64,000 nucleotides of DNA from Nitrospira sp. (lineage in GTDB: Bacteria > Nitrospirota > Nitrospiria > Nitrospirales > Nitrospiraceae), in assembly GCA_024998595.1 (NCBI GenBank), contig JACOEK010000002.1, positions 310,001-374,000 of the forward strand, written 5' to 3'. Positions 13,523 to 23,578 of this stretch are shown in pieces (position 1 is the stretch's first letter; the number at the start of each line of letters is the position of its first letter). A model generated the notes under the pieces. That model saw only the letters and a program-made list of their open reading frames with translations. It ran no database searches and was not told the origin of the DNA. The position numbers and the translations under genes were made by a program.

Positions 13523-13552
13523 TTGACCAACTCCTTTGTCTTCCACTATGAT
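13523..13552 (+). promoter_or_regulatory. Sigma-70-type promoter of the MFP/TolC/ABC cluster
   Basis: TTGACC at 13523-13528 and TATGAT at 13547-13552 are separated by 18 bp, near-consensus -35 and -10 boxes. Transcription would begin near 13559. The ATG at 13548, which looks like a start codon for the next gene, lies inside the -10 box and so cannot be translated from this promoter. Confidence 0.6.
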
Positions 13553-13595
13553 ACGTCTGCGCATCTTTACAGAGGATGGTGCGTGGAGGGGTCAC

Positions 13596-15032
13596 GTGCA
13601 GCGTATCCGTGAGGGACTCAAAACCCGATTTCGCTCCCTCGTCACCCAACGTACCGGCTTGGATGAAATGGCCGTCGACGATCTGGCGACGTCGACCAAG
13701 CTCCAGTCCTGGGAAGCCGTCCAAATCCCCGAACGGCTTCGGTTCTCCTCACGCTTGGCCATTCTCCTGGTCGGCTTCTTCATGCTGATCGTGGCCTTCG
13801 TCCCCTGGACTCAAACTATCACGGTCACCGGCCAACTCTCCGCCTACACCCCCTTTGAGCGCCCGCAAGACATCGAGGCGCAGATTACCGGTCGAATCAG
13901 GAAGTGGCACATCTTCGAAGGCGTGCGGGTTAAGGCGGGCGACGTAATTCTCGAACTCGACGACTACGACCCGAATTTCATGGCCCCGGACCTCCTGAAC
14001 CTGCTCGAACAACGCAAGAGCGCTCTGGAGGATACCCGGAAGGCTGCCCTCAGCCGCGCCGATCAGCTCGATAAACGCATCAAGGAAATGCAAAACCTCG
14101 TGAAGGCCGCGGTGCCGTCGGCAGGCGCGCGCGTGCAGGAGGCGGACAGCAAGGTTCGGGAAGCCTACCAGAAGGTCGAGGTCGCAAAAATTGCCGTGGC
14201 CACCGCCGAACTGAACGTCGATCGACACAAACAACTCGTCAGCCAGGGCCTGGTCTCGCAGCGCGAATTGGAAGTCAGCATCCAGCAAGCCATCGCGTCC
14301 AAGGCCGACCTCGACGGGGCAAAAGCCAATTTGAAGGCGGCCGAGCAGTCGATGAAGGCGTCGACCTTCGGACGGGATCAGATCAGTGCGGAAGTGCTGC
14401 AACGTCTCCTCGAAGCCGAAGCGGCCCGCGATGCCTCGATCGGCGAAGCGGCGCGTGCCGCCGATCAGGTGGCGGACGTCTCTCTGCGTCTTTCCAACGC
14501 CAATCAGCGACGGGTGGCCAGCCGTATTCTTTCGCCCATTGACGGTACCGTCGTGAAAATGGCGCAGTCGGGTGCCGGCGAAACCGTACGGCCAGGCGAA
14601 AAACTCGTCCGAATCTCTCCCAATACCACGGACCGGGCCATTGAAATGGTGGCCGACGGCATCGACGCCCCGTTGCTCAATGTCGGCCGAAAGGTCAAGA
14701 TTCTGTTTTACGGTATTCCGGCCATTCCCCTGCCAGCCTGGCCGGAAATGATGGCTGGTACGTACAACGGGGTGATCAAGGTCATCGACCAGGTCGACGA
14801 CGGCAAGGGCAACTTCCGCTTCTGGGTCATCCCCGATCTGGAGGAACGTCCCTGGCCTCCACAAGAACATGTCCGCCAGGGCACCAAAACCATGGGATGG
14901 GTCATTCTCAATCGCGTCCCGCTTTGGTACGAGCTCTGGCGCCGGTTCAATCTCTTTCCGCCCGACTACCAGGAACGGCCCCCGAGTCTGATCGATACAC
15001 TTCTGCCGAAAGCCGGTCGCGGGGCCAAGTAA
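13596..15032 (+). CDS. HlyD-family membrane fusion (periplasmic adaptor) protein
   Basis: Periplasmic adaptor linking an inner-membrane transporter to a TolC-like channel. The frame opens upstream, but the first start downstream of the promoter is the GTG at 13596, preceded by GGAGGGG at 13585-13591, giving 478 residues. A cytosolic N-terminal segment of ~50 residues and one transmembrane helix (about 50-75, LAILLVGFFMLIVAFVPWTQ) are followed by a lipoyl-like half (GRIRKWHIFEGVRVKAGDVI), a long coiled coil (130-290), the second lipoyl half (ILSPIDGTVVKMAQSGAGET) and a beta-barrel. The long N-terminal cytosolic tail is unlike simple RND adaptors. It is the first gene of the cluster with TolC and two ABC proteins. 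Confidence 0.9.
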   Translation: MQRIREGLKTRFRSLVTQRTGLDEMAVDDLATSTKLQSWEAVQIPERLRFSSRLAILLVGFFMLIVAFVPWTQTITVTGQLSAYTPFERPQDIEAQITGRIRKWHIFEGVRVKAGDVILELDDYDPNFMAPDLLNLLEQRKSALEDTRKAALSRADQLDKRIKEMQNLVKAAVPSAGARVQEADSKVREAYQKVEVAKIAVATAELNVDRHKQLVSQGLVSQRELEVSIQQAIASKADLDGAKANLKAAEQSMKASTFGRDQISAEVLQRLLEAEAARDASIGEAARAADQVADVSLRLSNANQRRVASRILSPIDGTVVKMAQSGAGETVRPGEKLVRISPNTTDRAIEMVADGIDAPLLNVGRKVKILFYGIPAIPLPAWPEMMAGTYNGVIKVIDQVDDGKGNFRFWVIPDLEERPWPPQEHVRQGTKTMGWVILNRVPLWYELWRRFNLFPPDYQERPPSLIDTLLPKAGRGAK

Positions 15033-15120
15033 CCGGTCCCGCCTCACCGGCGCATGCCGGAGCGCTGACATCCTTCGACGCTTATTCTCTGTCTTGTGAT
15101 CTCAGAAAGGAGTGCGTTTC

Positions 15121-16608
15121 ATGAAGAACTATGCGTGGGTCCTGCTCATTGCCGCCTGTGCGCTCTGCGGGCTGCCGGAAGGCAGCGCCGGAGCGGAGGA
15201 CACGGTCAAATCAAAAGCTCTTCCACCTATTCCCCTGTCTCTGAACGAAGTGCTCGCCTGGATCGATCGCTCCCATCCCCTGCTGAAGGGAGCCGGTACG
15301 GAAAAAGTCTCGGCACGCGGCAAAATGCTCAAAGCTCTGGGCGCATTCGAGCCGGTCTTGGTGAACGATACCGAGATCGAACGCTTTATCGACAAGGGCA
15401 CCACCAAAACCCAAAGCGTGGGATTTAACGATACCTTGATCGAAGCGAGGACCCCCTGGGGCTTCCGTGGTAGCGCGGGCTTTCGGCAGGCCATCGGGGA
15501 CGCGAAGATTCCGGACCTCTCTCTCGGCAACGGCCAGCAAGTGATTCTCGGCGGCTTCCTGCCCCTCCTGAAAGGGCTCATGATCAACCCGGAGAACGCG
15601 GAACTGCAGCGTTCGGAACTGGCTGATCCTCGCGCCGAGGTGAAAATTTCGCAAACGAGGCAGGACCTCTTCCTCGCCGCTGCGAGCCAATTCTGGGATT
15701 GGGTCTCGGCAGCCAAGTTTGTGGACGTGCAACGCCGGGCCCTAGGCGTCGCAGAAGAACGGTTGCGGCAGGTGGAGGGCAGGGCCAAAGCCGGAGCCGT
15801 GGCGCCGCTCGACGTGGTGGAGGCAGGGCAGGAAGTGCAGCGCCGCCGCGAAGTCGCCATCACCGCGCAGCGAGCCGTGGAACAGGAACAGTATAAAATG
15901 TCGATGTTCCTCTGGGAAAACCAGACGCCCACAGCACCGCAACTCGAGCGTGTTCCCGATTTCCCCCCTCCCGCCGCTCTGCCGACCGCTGACATCGTCA
16001 AGGCCGATAAGCTGCAGGCGAAAAGCGATCGTCCGGAAATTCGCGAAGTGGATATCGAAGCCAAGGTCAACAATATCGATCTGGAACTCGCCAAGAACAA
16101 TCTCTTGCCGAGTCTCGATCTGGAAGCGGCGCCGGCCAGGGCCCCGGAGAAATTTGTGCTTGGATTGGGCTATCGGTTCGGAGCGGAATTGCGCATCCCG
16201 ATCCTCCAACGTAGAAGCCGCGGCGAAGTGATGGAAGCCCAGGCGCAGGCCGATCGCCTGGTGCTGGTGCAAAAATACCGGGAACAGCAAGTGGTCGTGG
16301 ATGTCGACAATGCCGTTTCAGCCATTGAACGGGCGAAGGAGCGGGTTGCGGCGGCGGCGGAATCGCTCCGCATGGCCAAGACCCTGGAGGAAGGCGAACG
16401 CTTCCGGTTTAGTCTGGGTGCCACGAGCGTCTTGTTTGTGAATCTTCGCGAGCGCAATTCCGTCGATTCGGAAATGCAATTGGTGCGGGCGAAGGCCGAT
16501 TACCAGAAGTCCCTCGCCCTGTATCAATGGGCGACCGGCTCCTGGGCCCGGAGCCAGCCGTCCGCCGTGCCGGTCAATTATCGGGTCGGCGCGAGCTTCT
16601 CCAAATAG
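15121..16608 (+). CDS. TolC-family outer membrane channel protein
   Basis: 495 residues with a signal peptide (MKNYAWVLLIAACALCGLP, cleavage near AGA-ED). The ATG at 15121 is preceded by AAGGAG at 15107-15112 with 8-bp spacing, which decides against the GTG at 15112. The body has the two long helical repeats of outer-membrane efflux proteins (WDWVSAAKFVDVQRRALGVA; VVDVDNAVSAIERAKERVAA) and is predicted to form the trimeric exit duct for the adaptor encoded 88 bp upstream. Confidence 0.9.
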   Translation: MKNYAWVLLIAACALCGLPEGSAGAEDTVKSKALPPIPLSLNEVLAWIDRSHPLLKGAGTEKVSARGKMLKALGAFEPVLVNDTEIERFIDKGTTKTQSVGFNDTLIEARTPWGFRGSAGFRQAIGDAKIPDLSLGNGQQVILGGFLPLLKGLMINPENAELQRSELADPRAEVKISQTRQDLFLAAASQFWDWVSAAKFVDVQRRALGVAEERLRQVEGRAKAGAVAPLDVVEAGQEVQRRREVAITAQRAVEQEQYKMSMFLWENQTPTAPQLERVPDFPPPAALPTADIVKADKLQAKSDRPEIREVDIEAKVNNIDLELAKNNLLPSLDLEAAPARAPEKFVLGLGYRFGAELRIPILQRRSRGEVMEAQAQADRLVLVQKYREQQVVVDVDNAVSAIERAKERVAAAAESLRMAKTLEEGERFRFSLGATSVLFVNLRERNSVDSEMQLVRAKADYQKSLALYQWATGSWARSQPSAVPVNYRVGASFSK

Positions 16609-16722
16609 TAGTATTTTGGGGTGCGCTCTGATAGGTTTTAGCAGGTGTAGGCCTGCGCAGACAGGTCGCCGCAACCACGTCTTTCGGGCGGCGGCTTGAA
16701 GAGGCGTGCCAGGGGTAGCAGG

Positions 16723-18390
16723 ATGGCCCAGGATCATTCCGACAACCAGAGTAATCTGTTCCAAGCGGTCGTCGGCCATCTGGGCCTCCTGTTTCGTCTC
16801 GAACGGCGCATCCTCGGCCTCATTGTCTCGTATTCGATCGCCATCGGGCTCTTCTCGCTAATCGTCCCCCTCACCGTCCAAGAACTCGTCAACACCTTCG
16901 CATTCGCTCTGCAGCCCATCACGATCGTGACGCTGGCAGCCGTCATGGTGGCGGGCCTCCTCTTCGTCGGGGCCTTCCGGGCGCTGCAATATTATGCGGT
17001 GGAAGTCTTGGAGCGGCGCATTTTTGCGCGAGTTGCCATTGCCATGGCGCAACAACTCCCGCATCTGCGTTATCAGGGATTCAAACCCCGCTACGCGAAT
17101 TACTTCGTCGAAACCATTCTCATGCAACGGGCCGTTTCGGTCCTGCTGGTGGACCTGATCAACGTGATCGTGGGTGGGGCGGTCGGCATGACCATCCTCG
17201 TGTTCTACCACCCGTACTTCCTGTTGTTTAACGCGATCCTGCTGGTCGGGTTCAATGTCGTGTTCTTTCTCATGAGTCACGGCGGCCTGAAGGCCGACAT
17301 GGACATGTCGCATGCCAAATACGACACCCTGCACTGGTTTCAGGAAATTGCGTACAACCTGCTCCATTTCAAGTCCACCGATAGTCAGGCGCTGCTGATC
17401 AAAAAGACGGATCAGCTCCTGGACACTTATGTCGGCGTGCGCAAAACCCGATTTGGAATTCTGATCCGGCAGTATCTGGGGTCGCTCGGCTGGCAGGCGA
17501 TCGTCCATAGCGGTCTCATCGCAACGGCAGGCTGGCTCCTGGGGATCGGCCAGCTCACGCTCGGACAATTCGTCGCCGCCGAAGTCGTGGTAAGCGGGAT
17601 CCTGTCAAGCTTCGACGGCGTGGTGAAGCGGATGGGGCATATCTATTATTTCCTGACCGCGCTGACCGAATTGAGTTTCCTCTTCTCGCTACCCAAGGAT
17701 CAGGACGCCGCGACGCTCTCCATTCCCTTGCCGGATCCGACGGTCCACGGTATTCGAGTCACGTGCAAAGATCTCACCTTTGCGCCCGCCGGCGGCCCAC
17801 CCGTATTTGAGCACTTCAACCTCGAAGTGACGCCGGGGGAAAAAATCGGCATCTATGCGGATTCGACGATGGCAAAAACCGCGCTGGCCCGCGTGCTCGG
17901 CGGGCTCGAATCACCCACCGCCGGCGTCATCCGCTACAACGGCGTCGATCTCCGGCACCTGAACCTGGACTCCGTCAATCGCTTCAGAGGATTCATCCTG
18001 GATTCGCAGCTCTCCCTGTTTGAAGGGACGCTGGAAGAAAACATCGTGCTCGGACGCGACTACATTCCCTATAGCGACGTGCGATGGGCCCTGCGCTTCA
18101 CCGAACTCGAGGAAGAAGTCGACGCCCTTCCCCAGGGCCTGAAAACGCATGTGCGAACCGCCGGCAAAATCTTCGCTCCGACGCACATCGTGCGCATTCT
18201 GGTGGCCCGGGCGATCCTGGGACGCCCGCAGCTCCTCATTTTCGAAGGCATCCTCCACAACATGCATCCCGCTATGCGCGAGACGATCCTCCGGCGCCTG
18301 TGCAGCAAAGAGGAACCCTGGTCGGTGATCTTCGTCTCGAACGATCCCAATCTGACTCCACATGTCGACCGCCGGATCATGCTGAACTAA
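16723..18390 (+). CDS. ABC half-transporter with degenerate ATPase domain (copy 1)
   Basis: 555 residues: a six-helix transmembrane domain (about 30-310) fused to a nucleotide-binding-like domain (about 340-555). The start at 16723 has AGGGG upstream; an in-frame TTG at 16696 is less likely. The ATPase motifs are broken: the Walker A loop reads ADSTMAKT (379-386; both glycines lost, Lys385 kept), there is no LSGGQ (FAPTHIVRILVARA), Walker B reads LLIFEG (Asp to Glu, catalytic Glu to Gly509), and the switch histidine is Asn540 (FVSNDP). The Q-loop Gln429 remains. It is homologous along its full length to the next gene. Hydrolysis seems unlikely; a structural or regulatory half-transporter is inferred. 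Confidence 0.85.
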   Translation: MAQDHSDNQSNLFQAVVGHLGLLFRLERRILGLIVSYSIAIGLFSLIVPLTVQELVNTFAFALQPITIVTLAAVMVAGLLFVGAFRALQYYAVEVLERRIFARVAIAMAQQLPHLRYQGFKPRYANYFVETILMQRAVSVLLVDLINVIVGGAVGMTILVFYHPYFLLFNAILLVGFNVVFFLMSHGGLKADMDMSHAKYDTLHWFQEIAYNLLHFKSTDSQALLIKKTDQLLDTYVGVRKTRFGILIRQYLGSLGWQAIVHSGLIATAGWLLGIGQLTLGQFVAAEVVVSGILSSFDGVVKRMGHIYYFLTALTELSFLFSLPKDQDAATLSIPLPDPTVHGIRVTCKDLTFAPAGGPPVFEHFNLEVTPGEKIGIYADSTMAKTALARVLGGLESPTAGVIRYNGVDLRHLNLDSVNRFRGFILDSQLSLFEGTLEENIVLGRDYIPYSDVRWALRFTELEEEVDALPQGLKTHVRTAGKIFAPTHIVRILVARAILGRPQLLIFEGILHNMHPAMRETILRRLCSKEEPWSVIFVSNDPNLTPHVDRRIMLN

Positions 18391-18524
18391 CCGGTTGCCG
18401 CACAATCATCAGACTGCTCACCTGGGGCGATTGATTCCTCTCCGCCGGCCCCGCCCCTCATCCTTGACAGAGATGCGGTATTCGACCACACTGCGCCCCA
18501 CCATCCGCCGACACGAGCCATCGC

Positions 18525-20201
18525 GTGAACCACGACGCCACTGAATCAACGATCACCACACCTTCAGCCTGGACCATTCTTTCGCGTCTCAACCTCCTGA
18601 TCGGACTCGAACGTCGCATCTTGGCGATCATCGCGTCCTATGCCCTCGTGATCGGCTTGTTTGCGCTGATCGTGCCGCTCACCGTGCAAGAGCTCGTCAA
18701 CACCTTCGCCTTCGCCATTCAACCCATCATGATCGTGACGTTGGTGGCCATTATGTTGGGAGCCTTGCTGTTGATGGGTGCGTTCCGCGTGCTGCAGGGT
18801 CGAGCGGTGGAGATCCTCGTGCAGCGGATCTATACGCGGCTTGCGGTCGCCTTTACCGAAGCCCTGCTCCGTTTTCGGGAAAACGTCTTTCTTCCCCAAC
18901 ATACCAACACCTTCATCGAAGCGGAGCTGTTGCCACGCGCGCTGGTCGCGATGCTGGTCGACCTCATCAATGTGTTTGTGTCGGGCATGATCGGCATGGC
19001 GATCCTGGTCATGTACCATCCCTACTTCCTCGGCTATAACTTCTTCCTGATTATGGGTTTTGCGTTTCTCCTGACCTTTTTCGGTCGTGGAGGACTCCGC
19101 ATTACGCAACGAGTCTCGCGGCTCCACTACCAGACGTTTCACTGGTTGCAAGACATCGGCATCAATCGCCTCCATTTCAAAGCCACCGACAGCCTTCCGC
19201 TCCTGCTCAAGAAAACCGATGCGCTCGTTCAAGCCTATGTCATGGCGAGGAAGACACGATCCGATATTTTGACCGGGGCCCAATATAAGAGCACGGTCAT
19301 CTTCCAGGCCTTCGCCCACAGCGGCATGATCGGCCTCGGCGGATGGTTGTTATCGCTGGGGGATATTACACTTGGCCAATTCGTGGCGGCGGAAGTCATT
19401 GTGGGGACGCTGCTCCTCAATCTCGACATCGTTGCCCGACGCATGTACGCGGCCATTTATGTCGCCACCTCGCTGCAGGAGCTCTCCAGGCTGTTCGAGA
19501 TGCCGAAAGAAGACGTCTCCGGTCCGATCGCCGCCCGGCTGCCGAATCCCACGCTGCAGGGAGTGCGGCTGACGTGCAAAGACGTGTCCTTTGCGAGCGC
19601 GGACGGACCGATGCTGTTCGATCATTTCAACCTGGAAGTGTTGCCGGGAGAAAAGATCAGCGTGCTCACGGGAACGAGCAAAAGCAAAACGTCACTGGCA
19701 CTCCTCCTGGCGGGCCTCTATCATCCGACCAGCGGGGTCATCCGCTACAATGACATCGACCTGCGCGACGTCTCACTCAATTATGTGAATCGCTGCCGGG
19801 GGTTGATGCTCGACTCCCACCCGACCCTGTTCGATGGAACCCTGGAGGAAAACGTGACGCTCCAGCGCCCGTCGATTCAATTCGCCGATCTGAGCTGGGC
19901 GCTTCGATTCGTCGAGCTTGAGGAGGAAATCGACGCGCTGCCCCAAGGGCTGGAAACCATCGTGCACGGAAACGGGGCCAATTTGAGCCGCAGCCAGGTC
20001 CTGCGCATTCTCCTGGCCAGGATGATCGTCACCCGGCCGGAATTGCTGATTTTTAACGGCAGCCTCCACAATATCGACCCCACCCTGCGACTGACGCTAC
20101 TGCGAAGGCTCTGCTCCAAAGAGGAGCCCTGGTCGGTCGTGTTCGTCTCCAATGATCCGGAAGTCGGTCACCTGGTCGAGCGACGCATCGTCCTCGACTG
20201 A
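18525..20201 (+). CDS. ABC half-transporter with degenerate ATPase domain (copy 2)
   Basis: 558 residues, a paralogue of the preceding gene with the same layout: transmembrane domain about 30-315, nucleotide-binding-like domain from ~345. The Walker A loop is TGTSKSKT (382-389; Lys388 kept, both glycines lost), the signature is LSRSQ (487-491) instead of LSGGQ, Walker B is LLIFNG (Asn511 at the Asp site, Gly512 at the catalytic Glu), the switch histidine is Asn543, and the Q-loop glutamine is His432. If the two proteins form a heterodimer, neither composite site has a catalytic base. A duplication followed by parallel loss is the simplest explanation. Confidence 0.85.
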   Translation: MNHDATESTITTPSAWTILSRLNLLIGLERRILAIIASYALVIGLFALIVPLTVQELVNTFAFAIQPIMIVTLVAIMLGALLLMGAFRVLQGRAVEILVQRIYTRLAVAFTEALLRFRENVFLPQHTNTFIEAELLPRALVAMLVDLINVFVSGMIGMAILVMYHPYFLGYNFFLIMGFAFLLTFFGRGGLRITQRVSRLHYQTFHWLQDIGINRLHFKATDSLPLLLKKTDALVQAYVMARKTRSDILTGAQYKSTVIFQAFAHSGMIGLGGWLLSLGDITLGQFVAAEVIVGTLLLNLDIVARRMYAAIYVATSLQELSRLFEMPKEDVSGPIAARLPNPTLQGVRLTCKDVSFASADGPMLFDHFNLEVLPGEKISVLTGTSKSKTSLALLLAGLYHPTSGVIRYNDIDLRDVSLNYVNRCRGLMLDSHPTLFDGTLEENVTLQRPSIQFADLSWALRFVELEEEIDALPQGLETIVHGNGANLSRSQVLRILLARMIVTRPELLIFNGSLHNIDPTLRLTLLRRLCSKEEPWSVVFVSNDPEVGHLVERRIVLD

Positions 20202-20311
20202 CCTGCGCGTTTCCTAAAAAACCTCGACTTCTTTCTTCAAACACGATCTGCTAGACTGCATGGGCCAAAACCTGGGCCACATGCTCCGCGTCCGGCCCGA
20301 AAAGGACACCT

Positions 20312-21088
20312 GTGTCGCTTGCTTCACGTTTCAAACTGTCCGTTCCCAGCACGAACCAATTGATCATCAGTATCCTGATCGCAGGATTGGGATGGATCAG
20401 CGGGCAGGCTCTCAGCCGGATCGATCAGGACCTGCGGATCATGTATACCGAGTACACGCTGGGGGCAGCCGACCTGGCCCATATCTCTGCCGACGTCATC
20501 CGGTATCGCAACACCATCATCCGATCGTTGGAAGCAGAAAATCAGGTCGTCTACGAGCGCATTATCGAATCACTGCCGGCGCAACGAGCACGCATTCAGC
20601 ATGCGGTGGATCGTTACGCCGCAGCCGGCCTGCGCGTGTCGCGGAGCGGACGCAGCGAAGAAAAAGACATCCAGGCCGTGCGTGACAGCCTCGACCAATA
20701 CTTCCACGTTGCCAGCCAGACGATCGATCTTCTCTCGCAGGAATGGAATGCGGGATCGCCCAAAGAGGCGGCGGAGCTCCGGCGTAAAGCTGAGATCCAT
20801 GCCGCCGACAACGGCGGGCCTAAGGTCATGCAGGTCAGTCTGGCTTTGGATCGCCTGCTTGAGACGGTGGCGGAAGTCGCCAAAGACATGCGCGACGAAG
20901 GCACCAAGACCATTCGGTCGACCAGCTATTGGATTGTGGGAGGGAGTTTTTTCATCGCGCTATTGAATCTCTTCCTCAGTCGAACCGCGAGACCACCGCT
21001 GCCCCTGTCCAGATCTGAAGAATCCGTCCATCCCGATTCATTGAACCTGCCCGGCGACCAGTCCAATACGGCCCTTCGCGCCGAATAA
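20312..21088 (+). CDS. Membrane protein with four-helix-bundle sensor-like domain, no output domain
   Basis: 258 residues from a GTG. One hydrophobic helix near residues 14-33 and one near 207-226 flank a ~170-residue helical, charged extracytoplasmic region like the 4HB sensor domain of chemoreceptors (DLAHISADVIRYRNTIIRSL, QYFHVASQTIDLL). After the second helix only ~30 residues remain (RTARPPLPLSRSEESVHPDS), with no HAMP, kinase or methyl-accepting domain. It is the last gene of the plus-strand run behind the two pseudo-ABC genes (110 bp gap) and may belong to it functionally. Assignment to the 4HB class is by resemblance only. Confidence 0.65.
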   Translation: MSLASRFKLSVPSTNQLIISILIAGLGWISGQALSRIDQDLRIMYTEYTLGAADLAHISADVIRYRNTIIRSLEAENQVVYERIIESLPAQRARIQHAVDRYAAAGLRVSRSGRSEEKDIQAVRDSLDQYFHVASQTIDLLSQEWNAGSPKEAAELRRKAEIHAADNGGPKVMQVSLALDRLLETVAEVAKDMRDEGTKTIRSTSYWIVGGSFFIALLNLFLSRTARPPLPLSRSEESVHPDSLNLPGDQSNTALRAE

Positions 21089-21887: not shown

Positions 21888-22820
21888 CTAGTGAACAGGT
21901 CGGCCGGCTCGAATCCGCCCCAGCATGCGGTAGATCAAGCGGGCAATGCTGAACTGAGGCGCGACGAACCCTTCAATGGGAGCGATCTCGCTGATGTCCA
22001 TGCCCACGATGCCGGGGCCATTTGCCAGCGCCGTCACCAGCGCCAGGGTGTCGTACCACCCCAAGCCGCCCGGTTCCGGTGTTCCCAAAGCCGGAACGAG
22101 CGAGGCATCCAGCCCGTCACAATCGAAGGTGAGATACACCGGCCCGGTGCACGCAGCCAGAACCTCAGGAATCCAGCGAGCGGCCCTTCCCTCGTAGGGG
22201 CCGGAAGGATCCAGGATCGAGGCGGCAAAAAAGGTCTTGATGCGGGGAGTCTTGTCGATGAGATCGATTTCTTCCGGACTGATCGACCGGATGCCGATCT
22301 GCACGAGCGGCAACCCGTCTTGCACCACTCGGGCCATGACACTGGCGTGACTGTAAGGATTGTCTTGATAGGCCTGACGGAGATCGCCATGCGCATCGAT
22401 TTGTACGACGTTCATCCCCGGATAGGCCTGCGCATGCGCGCGAATTGCGCCTAAGGCACCGGTATGTTCGCCGGTCAGGGTCACCAGAAACTTCCCTCGA
22501 CCGACGTGCGGTGCCACAAACTCCTGAATGGCCTGCACGGCCTGGCCATCCACGCGCCCGGCAAGGTTCAATGTCGCGGCCGTGGCGACGCCGCCCCACT
22601 CGCGATACGGCTCGTACCGCAACTGCTCATCGTACAGTTCGACCTGTTGAGAGGCTTCAATGATAGCGGAAGGGCCTCGATCGGAGCCGAGGATATAACT
22701 CGAGGTGTGCTCGTAGGGAGCCGGCAGTACATACACTCCGGCTTGATCAGGATGACACCAGGGTTCGTCGATCCCGAGGAAATTATCGGCTTGCCCAAGC
22801 CATCCTGACGGGAGCGCCAT
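21888..22820 (-). CDS. speB: Agmatinase (ureohydrolase family)
   Basis: Mn-dependent hydrolase converting agmatine to putrescine and urea. It has 310 residues, the normal length. Metal ligands are visible in LTGEHTGALG (His119; the usual GGxH reads TGEH), IDAHGDLR (Asp142, His144, Asp146) and TFDCDGLDAS (two Asp). It directly follows the pyruvoyl arginine decarboxylase gene (8 bp from its stop), which makes the substrate, so the agmatinase assignment is favoured over arginase or formiminoglutamase. Confidence 0.92.
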   Translation of the reverse strand: MALPSGWLGQADNFLGIDEPWCHPDQAGVYVLPAPYEHTSSYILGSDRGPSAIIEASQQVELYDEQLRYEPYREWGGVATAATLNLAGRVDGQAVQAIQEFVAPHVGRGKFLVTLTGEHTGALGAIRAHAQAYPGMNVVQIDAHGDLRQAYQDNPYSHASVMARVVQDGLPLVQIGIRSISPEEIDLIDKTPRIKTFFAASILDPSGPYEGRAARWIPEVLAACTGPVYLTFDCDGLDASLVPALGTPEPGGLGWYDTLALVTALANGPGIVGMDISEIAPIEGFVAPQFSIARLIYRMLGRIRAGRPVH

Positions 22821-22828
22821 ACCTGCCG

Positions 22829-23404
22829 CTAGGCCTTGTTCAGAAGGCTCTTGGGGATGTTTTCCGTCGGGATAAACACCGCCAACGCGATGACGCAGGT
22901 CCAGCGATTCGGCCGGCCGACCGCGGATTGCGTGATGTTGAGGGTCCGGACGATCTTTCCGCCCATCTTGAAGACCTGCTCGCGCTCTTTCCAGGCCACA
23001 TCCGGATCGAACTCGATGCCTTGGGTGGTGGCGAGCATCTGAGCCGCCAAGTCTTCCGTGTATTCACCGGATTCTTCGTCCGTTTCACCGTAGGCATGGT
23101 GTTCGGAAAGATAGCCGTACGTATCACGATCGGTCGGAATTGCTAAGCCGATAGATGCGGAGATCAGCCGATTGCGTTCGTTGGTCTCTGAACGGGCCAT
23201 CACGCAAAAGGTAATTTCCCCGGGATTCAACAATTTCTCGCCGCGCTTGCGGGGAAGAATTTTGCAGTTGGGCGGAAGAATGGACGAGACGCTGACGAGG
23301 TTACAATATGCCACGCCGGCACTACGCAAGGCCTGCTCGAACGCAGCCAGCTTTTCCTTGTGCACTCCGACGCCCCTCGTCAAAAACATGTGTGTTGGTA
23401 CCAT
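22829..23404 (-). CDS. pdaD: Pyruvoyl-dependent arginine decarboxylase
   Basis: Decarboxylates arginine to agmatine using a pyruvoyl group made by self-cleavage. 191 residues from the ATG at 23404, which has GAGGGAG just upstream; an ATG 18 bp further up lacks such a site. [19 protein letters not shown], the self-cleavage serine pair in [14 protein letters not shown] and [15 protein letters not shown] are diagnostic. The C-terminal part ([20 protein letters not shown]) is also typical. This type is common in archaea and patchy in bacteria. It is coupled with agmatinase for putrescine synthesis. Confidence 0.93.
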
Positions 23405-23578
23405 GTAGGTCTCCCTCTTCATCCCGCGTCGAAAGCACTCCGACTGAGTGTTCGATGAATTGTCACAAAACCTGTGCCGCGCATGTGATCATGCGGCGAC
23501 ACGCGCGAAAGTTGTATCAAGTTTGTTGCGCATCCGCAATACGGCAGGAGGGTTTTTTTGTCCCGCCACCGCTTTCCT

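Follow-up and report, generated by a model that had tools for sequence, protein, structure and literature searches.

ABC transporters are defined by ATP hydrolysis, and a cassette of Nitrospira sp. in which two ABC-type proteins with degenerate nucleotide-binding domains (NBDs) accompany an adaptor and a TolC-type duct raises the question of what, other than ATP, might drive it. The cassette lies within a 64,000-nucleotide stretch of contig JACOEK010000002.1, hereafter called the window. An earlier note on this DNA had described a membrane fusion protein, a TolC-like channel, two paralogous ABC proteins and a four-helix protein in a single run, and the coordinates, gene order and Pfam matches bear out this description:

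13548..15032, + strand: HlyD-type membrane fusion (adaptor) protein, likely ATG at 13548 (Pfam HlyD_3, 2.6e-8)
15112..16608, + strand: TolC-type outer-membrane duct protein (Pfam OEP, 2.9e-30)
16723..18390, + strand: ABC1, ABC-exporter-fold protein with a pseudo-NBD, likely ATG at 16723 (Pfam ABC_tran)
18525..20201, + strand: ABC2, paralogue of ABC1 with a pseudo-NBD (Pfam ABC_tran)
20312..21088, + strand: membrane-anchored four-helix-bundle protein of 258 aa with an MCP-type sensory fold (Pfam 4HB_MCP_1, 1.6e-9)

Degenerate ATPase domains of the cassette

The combination of an adaptor, a TolC-type duct and an ABC-fold protein in one operon is that of type I secretion. The open frame of the adaptor extends upstream to a TTG at 13536, and its C-terminus carries a WYELWRxxNxFP-type block that is common to the cassettes of Bacteroidota and looser in those of sphingomonads; the TolC-type gene occupies an equivalent position in most of the relatives' operons. 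The four-helix protein resembles chemoreceptors in its ligand domain and is devoid of a signalling domain. Its gene lies beside most cassettes of the host's family (f1) and is absent from those of a second family in the same order (f2). ABC1 and ABC2, each of about 555 aa, are 54% identical, and their NBDs are recognisable by sequence (Pfam ABC_tran, 30.7 bits for ABC1 and 37.3 bits for ABC2, at a cut-off of 25). In both of them the earlier note had reported the loss of the Walker A glycines, the Walker B Asp and Glu, the switch His and the LSGGQ motif, with only the Walker A Lys remaining, and direct reading of the motifs in the two proteins recovered each of these changes:

17857..17880, + strand: ABC1 degenerate Walker A, ADSTMAKT, against GxxGxGK[ST]
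18172..18186, + strand: ABC1 degenerate signature, FAPTH in place of LSGGQ
18232..18249, + strand: ABC1 degenerate Walker B, LLIFEG, against LLxxDE
18331..18348, + strand: ABC1 switch region, FVSNDP, His replaced by Asn
19668..19691, + strand: ABC2 degenerate Walker A, TGTSKSKT, against GxxGxGK[ST]
19983..19997, + strand: ABC2 degenerate signature, LSRSQ in place of LSGGQ
20043..20060, + strand: ABC2 degenerate Walker B, LLIFNG, against LLxxDE
20142..20156, + strand: ABC2 switch region, FVSND, His replaced by Asn

The Lys-Thr of Walker A is retained in both proteins, and the Gln of the Q-loop, as judged by eye, is also replaced by Ser. Neither protein, judged by its motifs, has the Walker A, Walker B Glu, signature and switch His of an ATP-driven ABC transporter, or the catalytically competent ABC ATPase of a type I secretion system. 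Misalignment was ruled out by a joint alignment with four canonical ABC paralogues of the host genome, in which GxxGxGK[ST], LSxG[QE], DE and the His are all intact, and chance or sequencing error by the recurrence of the losses throughout a sample of 78 homologues with an NBD from the order. The switch His, the catalytic Glu and the first two glycines of Walker A are present in 0/78 of these homologues; the Walker A Lys is kept in 70/78, and the Walker B Asp, lost in ABC1 and ABC2, is nevertheless kept in 53/78. The pseudo-NBD is thus most likely unable to hydrolyse ATP.

Loss of motifs alone would also fit a pseudogene or a decaying operon. However, pairwise dN/dS between close species is 0.014-0.066 over the pseudo-NBD (0.014-0.037 for that of ABC1) and 0.005-0.073 over the transmembrane domain (TMD), the frames are long and intact, and the family is present in 29/29 genomes of the host genus. 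The dN/dS values refute decay, to which we assign a practically negligible probability; the pseudo-NBD is under strong purifying selection and, although it looks dead as an ATPase, is not decaying.

A third paralogue with an equally dead NBD, ABC3, is encoded on the window's contig outside the window (G000:C9:420263-421948; L009:10261-11952). It stands alone, with no adjoining adaptor or TolC gene, as do similar solo copies in other genomes (e.g. L040, L041, L043, L051, L058), and may pair with ABC1 or ABC2 in place of the other. The sole other relative of the four-helix protein found in the genome lies within a 633-residue open frame (C2:509021-509632). The neighbours listed for the cassette within the window look like housekeeping genes. 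At 21888-23422 an agmatinase-like gene adjoins a pyruvoyl-dependent arginine decarboxylase-like gene, which by eye we take to be a likely arginine-to-putrescine pair.

Distribution and gradation of the family

The ABC family was found in 52 of 60 genomes sampled from f1 and in 7 listed genomes of f2; outside the order there was none among the matches listed at E<=1e-60 in a sample of the phylum. The gene order adaptor-TolC-ABC(-ABC)-four-helix protein is kept in most of f1, whereas in f2 the cassette consists of the adaptor, TolC and ABC genes alone. Cassettes are rearranged in some f1 genomes, part of which have three TolC genes in tandem. In the rearranged cassette of loci L098, L100 and L101 one ABC gene is flanked by the adaptor gene and, on its opposite side, by three tandem TolC-type genes. 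At another locus (L110, genome G039) the TMD and NBD of one of the two ABC copies apparently lie in separate frames, owing either to a genuine split of the gene or to a frameshift.

A search of plasmids recovered the adaptor-TolC-ABC trio in Persicobacter, Aureibacter and Riemerella (Bacteroidota) and in sphingomonads, again with degenerate NBDs, those of the sphingomonads being almost beyond recognition. The statement in the earlier note that related adaptor-linked ABC proteins of other phyla have odd signature motifs agrees with this, degenerate NBDs being spread across three groups of bacteria. A scan with an adaptor alignment, using one genome per species, yielded at least 590 relatives, of which the best 80 were examined; all of these 80 are from Bacteroidota, and as the first row of the alignment is a Bacteroidota protein other phyla are poorly sampled by it. 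An ABC-family match was present in 76 of these best 80 loci, nearly always as a family protein beside the adaptor. LSGGQ occurs in none of the family proteins of these loci, the catalytic Glu or the His in few, and Walker A in most. In a separate sample of Bacteroidota the family is present in 62 of 247 genomes. Most relatives carry one ABC protein, and the ABC pair emphasized by the earlier note is therefore not a defining feature of these systems.

One set of relatives with the same type of adaptor (L259-L268, L272) retains intact Walker A, Walker B Asp-Glu and switch His alongside odd signatures (LPGG, VSIG, LSTG). The earlier note had named close homologues with intact motifs as a sign of misalignment; near-intact relatives do exist, but they are distant and belong to a different bacterial group. 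Because of this family-level distance their motifs likely represent the ancestral state and give no sign of misalignment. In a tree with canonical proteins as outgroup they fall near the base, and from this position it follows that catalysis was probably lost at least twice, although long branches to the outgroup make the rooting uncertain. The family thus presents a graded series, from a near-intact NBD through Walker A only, a lone Lys and no motif at all to no NBD.

In several Cytophagales loci (L131, L138-L142 and others) the members are of about 720-740 aa and are extended at the N-terminus by a domain of about 150-190 residues; the one tested (L140) gave no significant Pfam match for this domain.

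Deletion of the NBD and the fate of the coupling helix

At nine loci (L096, L097, L159, L164, L165, L168, L171, L257, L258) the family protein has no NBD. Those of f2 (L096, L097) encode TMD-only proteins of 337 and 346 aa, situated 3' of the adaptor and TolC genes, and those of Bacteroidota comprise three from Larkinella and two from Spirosoma (333-334 aa) and two from further genomes (334 and 337 aa). All have an adaptor alongside. In 6/7 of the Bacteroidota cases the stop codon of the TMD-only gene and the start of the adaptor gene share a few bases, so that an NBD would not fit between them. An NBD as a separate open frame or displaced by a frameshift was not found at these loci in a six-frame search, in which NBD-bearing positive controls scored 1e-66 and 1e-86: there was no convincing remnant beside the TMD-only genes, and the one weak match (0.0035), at L257, is on the opposite strand and over 3 kb upstream. 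In the best TMD tree the TMD-only state requires two changes (bootstrap 5-95% range 2-2), and on this reconstruction the NBD is twice independently deleted. An AlphaFold2 model of a TMD-only protein shows a full exporter TMD (pLDDT 85.8, pTM 0.77), which in fold comparison matched TmrB (Z 26.4, 2.6 A over 321 residues) and HlyB (Z 26.0). The NBD blocks of the ABC2 model have pLDDT mostly of 79-96, and its best PDB match is HlyB of the HlyB/HlyD complex, with TmrAB and PCAT1 also among the matches; the six-helix exporter-type TMD is thus present both in ABC2 and in its NBD-less relative. No SbmA structure was among the fold matches listed, which speaks neither for nor against a relationship.

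Since the NBD was dropped twice while adaptor and duct were kept, ATP hydrolysis by the ABC-fold protein itself is unlikely to be needed, and the cassette probably works without ATP hydrolysis of its own. The suggestion of the earlier note that these proteins form a branch of adaptor-linked exporters independent of ATP hydrolysis gains support from the degenerate NBDs in three groups and the deletions in two lineages. One alternative is that in the host's family a residual ATP binding by the Walker A Lys-Thr, or a slow hydrolysis, still drives or gates the cycle. The Walker A Lys in 70/78 members of the order, the intact Walker A in most of the Bacteroidota members sampled and the strong conservation of the pseudo-NBD are compatible with it, but the proteins have lost their P-loop glycines, catalytic Glu, switch His and signature alike, the Lys itself is lost in f2 and sphingomonads, and the NBD-less relatives manage without any such domain; we consider this alternative very improbable.

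A second alternative, raised in the earlier note, is that hydrolysis is supplied in trans by another ABC protein or another ATPase, e.g. of the SecA type. Coupling helix 2 is the element of the TMD that docks the NBD, and with a trans-supplied NBD the docking helices would therefore be expected to stay constrained. In ABC2 this region is kept, its position having been read from the model:

19140..19208, + strand: ABC2 coupling-helix-2 region, residues 206-228

In a blind scan of 299 windows of 15 residues we compared how far TMD-only proteins have diverged from their NBD-bearing sisters with the divergence among those sisters; the result is a ranking and not a probability, as these windows overlap and the sequences are related. 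The top diverged one comprised residues 213-227 in Bacteroidota and 212-226 in f2 (ABC2 numbering), so that the coupling-helix-2 region emerged independently in the two lineages. The NBD-less proteins therefore appear no longer to serve an NBD, whereas the conserved coupling helix of ABC1 and ABC2 implies that their pseudo-NBD still docks. The loss of this constraint in both NBD-less lineages is contrary to what a trans-acting NBD would need. Moreover, with ABC1 and ABC2 both dead their heterodimer has no live site, and no ATPase was noticed in the cassettes examined. Intact ABC half-exporters encoded elsewhere in the host genome could in principle act in trans. There is also a precedent in the secondary SecA_DEAD-HlyD loci (Kamneva et al. 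2015), T1SS-like loci with no ABC protein and with a linked SecA-like ATPase (PMC4452313). Like the cassette, these have a T1SS-like adaptor and duct but no active ABC ATPase; in contrast to them, the cassette has ABC-fold proteins and no secondary SecA_DEAD protein. The host genome has only one SecA, on another contig, which speaks against the recruitment of a SecA. A recruited ATPase is on these grounds an improbable explanation, if less so than residual nucleotide use.

Candidate energy source and relation to known systems

The TMD has a set of residues shared by the pseudo and NBD-less members and mostly not found in the four canonical paralogues (Gln55, His165-Pro166, Ser198, Tyr202, Tyr238, Arg242 and the motif GQ(F/L)xAxE290), two of which are protonatable residues of particular relevance:

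19017..19019, + strand: ABC2 His165, family-specific TMD residue
19392..19394, + strand: ABC2 Glu290 (GQFVAAE), acidic residue specific to the family and shared by every NBD-less member sampled

In the pseudo and NBD-less groups Glu290 and His165 are conserved at 86-100%, and they are absent from the four canonical paralogues; Glu290 and Glu/Asp96 are conserved acidic positions. Gln replaces Glu290 in 13% of the pseudo members of the order. By analogy with SbmA, which is proton-driven, is derived from the TMD of an ABC transporter and has a glutamate ladder (PMC13316013), Glu290 and His165 could be proton carriers. However, the near-intact relatives have them too (Glu290 in 90%, His165 in 72%), for which reason they are to be seen as marks of the family rather than as proven proton carriers.

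We propose that the products of the cassette form a tripartite exporter of the cell envelope, a relative of type I secretion systems, in which ABC1 and ABC2 would make up the inner-membrane dimer, probably a heterodimer with the ABC-exporter transmembrane fold. Where it is kept, the pseudo-NBD would serve to clamp the coupling helices structurally; the driving force of transport would be an ion gradient, most likely of protons, coupled through Glu290 and His165, with Gln55 and Arg242 as possible further participants from the conserved set. In the host's family the four-helix protein might serve as a periplasmic sensor or assembly accessory. Against this proposal, to which we would give an even chance, binding of phosphate or nucleotide could persist at the Walker A Lys-Thr that is left in the host's family. 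Its main rival is that the ABC-fold dimer does not transport at all and is an anchor or gate for the adaptor-TolC duct, the whole being a passive channel, an envelope spacer or, together with the four-helix sensor, a signalling platform. Such a scaffold would accord with the dispensability of the NBD in relatives, the sensory protein in the host's operon, the solitary ABC3 and the fact that no linked substrate gene was noticed. Yet the polar TMD residues conserved across three groups and in the NBD-less members are more than an anchor should need, and the retention of the TolC-type duct throughout suggests that something is exported; we regard the scaffold as rather unlikely, and prefer the gradient-driven exporter.

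Compared with type I secretion (HlyB-HlyD-TolC and the PrtD/LssB type), the cassette has the same combination of adaptor, TolC-type duct and ABC-exporter fold in one operon, but its ABC proteins have neither a catalytic NBD nor a C39 or C39-like domain. Scores against curated type I secretion models were about 76-128 bits overall, far below the cut-offs of 510-726 (best scores 104.7 against 510 for PrtD, 127.8 against 693 for LssB and 87.1 against 726 for HlyB). With SbmA/BacA (SLiPT) it would share an ABC-exporter TMD of ABC-transporter descent that works independently of an NBD (PMC13316013) and, as proposed here, the proton drive. It differs in being tripartite with adaptor and duct and in that most members keep a pseudo-NBD and coupling helices, whereas SbmA is an importer; the absence of an NBD that characterizes SLiPT is seen in the NBD-less relatives and not in the window proteins. 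The Pfam model SbmA_BacA matched neither the cassette proteins nor the tested relative L140, and the origin of the family was apparently independent of SbmA/BacA. TmrAB, TM287/288, TAP and CFTR are likewise exporter-fold pairs with degenerate catalytic residues, but according to two reviews one of their sites stays active (PMC7756269, PMC8277102), whereas ABC1 and ABC2 are both dead. The cassette is therefore T1SS-like in its parts and SbmA-like in its proposed energetic logic, and by membership features is neither.

To our knowledge SbmA/BacA is the precedent for a gradient-driven transporter with the ABC fold, and its origin was inferred without intermediates. In the present family near-intact, Walker-A-only, dead and NBD-less members coexist with the same type of adaptor and duct, and with all stages living the switch can be traced stepwise and tested with real proteins. 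We suggest, at a confidence falling just short of even, that a widespread class of tripartite envelope exporters switched from ATP to an ion gradient, the ATPase domain of an ABC exporter like those of type I secretion having been killed and twice deleted. Secondary transport would then have arisen from the ABC fold a second time and independently, and the intermediates would still be living. We found no description of a dead or NBD-less adaptor-linked ABC system in the open full-text literature, subscription papers and preprints lying outside the search, and none is shown in the accessible part of a broad review of tripartite and type I systems (PMC8277102) or in a review of degenerate sites (PMC7756269). 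The label "ABC transporter ATP-binding protein", which many members receive in automatic annotation, is likely wrong as to mechanism for the host genus and for many of the family-bearing Bacteroidota, which make up about a quarter of the sampled genomes.

In both f2 genomes with NBD-less proteins (L096, L097) the TMD-only cassette has a common context: it is followed by genes for NuoL-like and DabA-like (large DUF2309-type) proteins, which by eye we take to be as in the DAB-type inorganic-carbon pumps, and on its other side lies a gene for what is presumably a LysR-type regulator.
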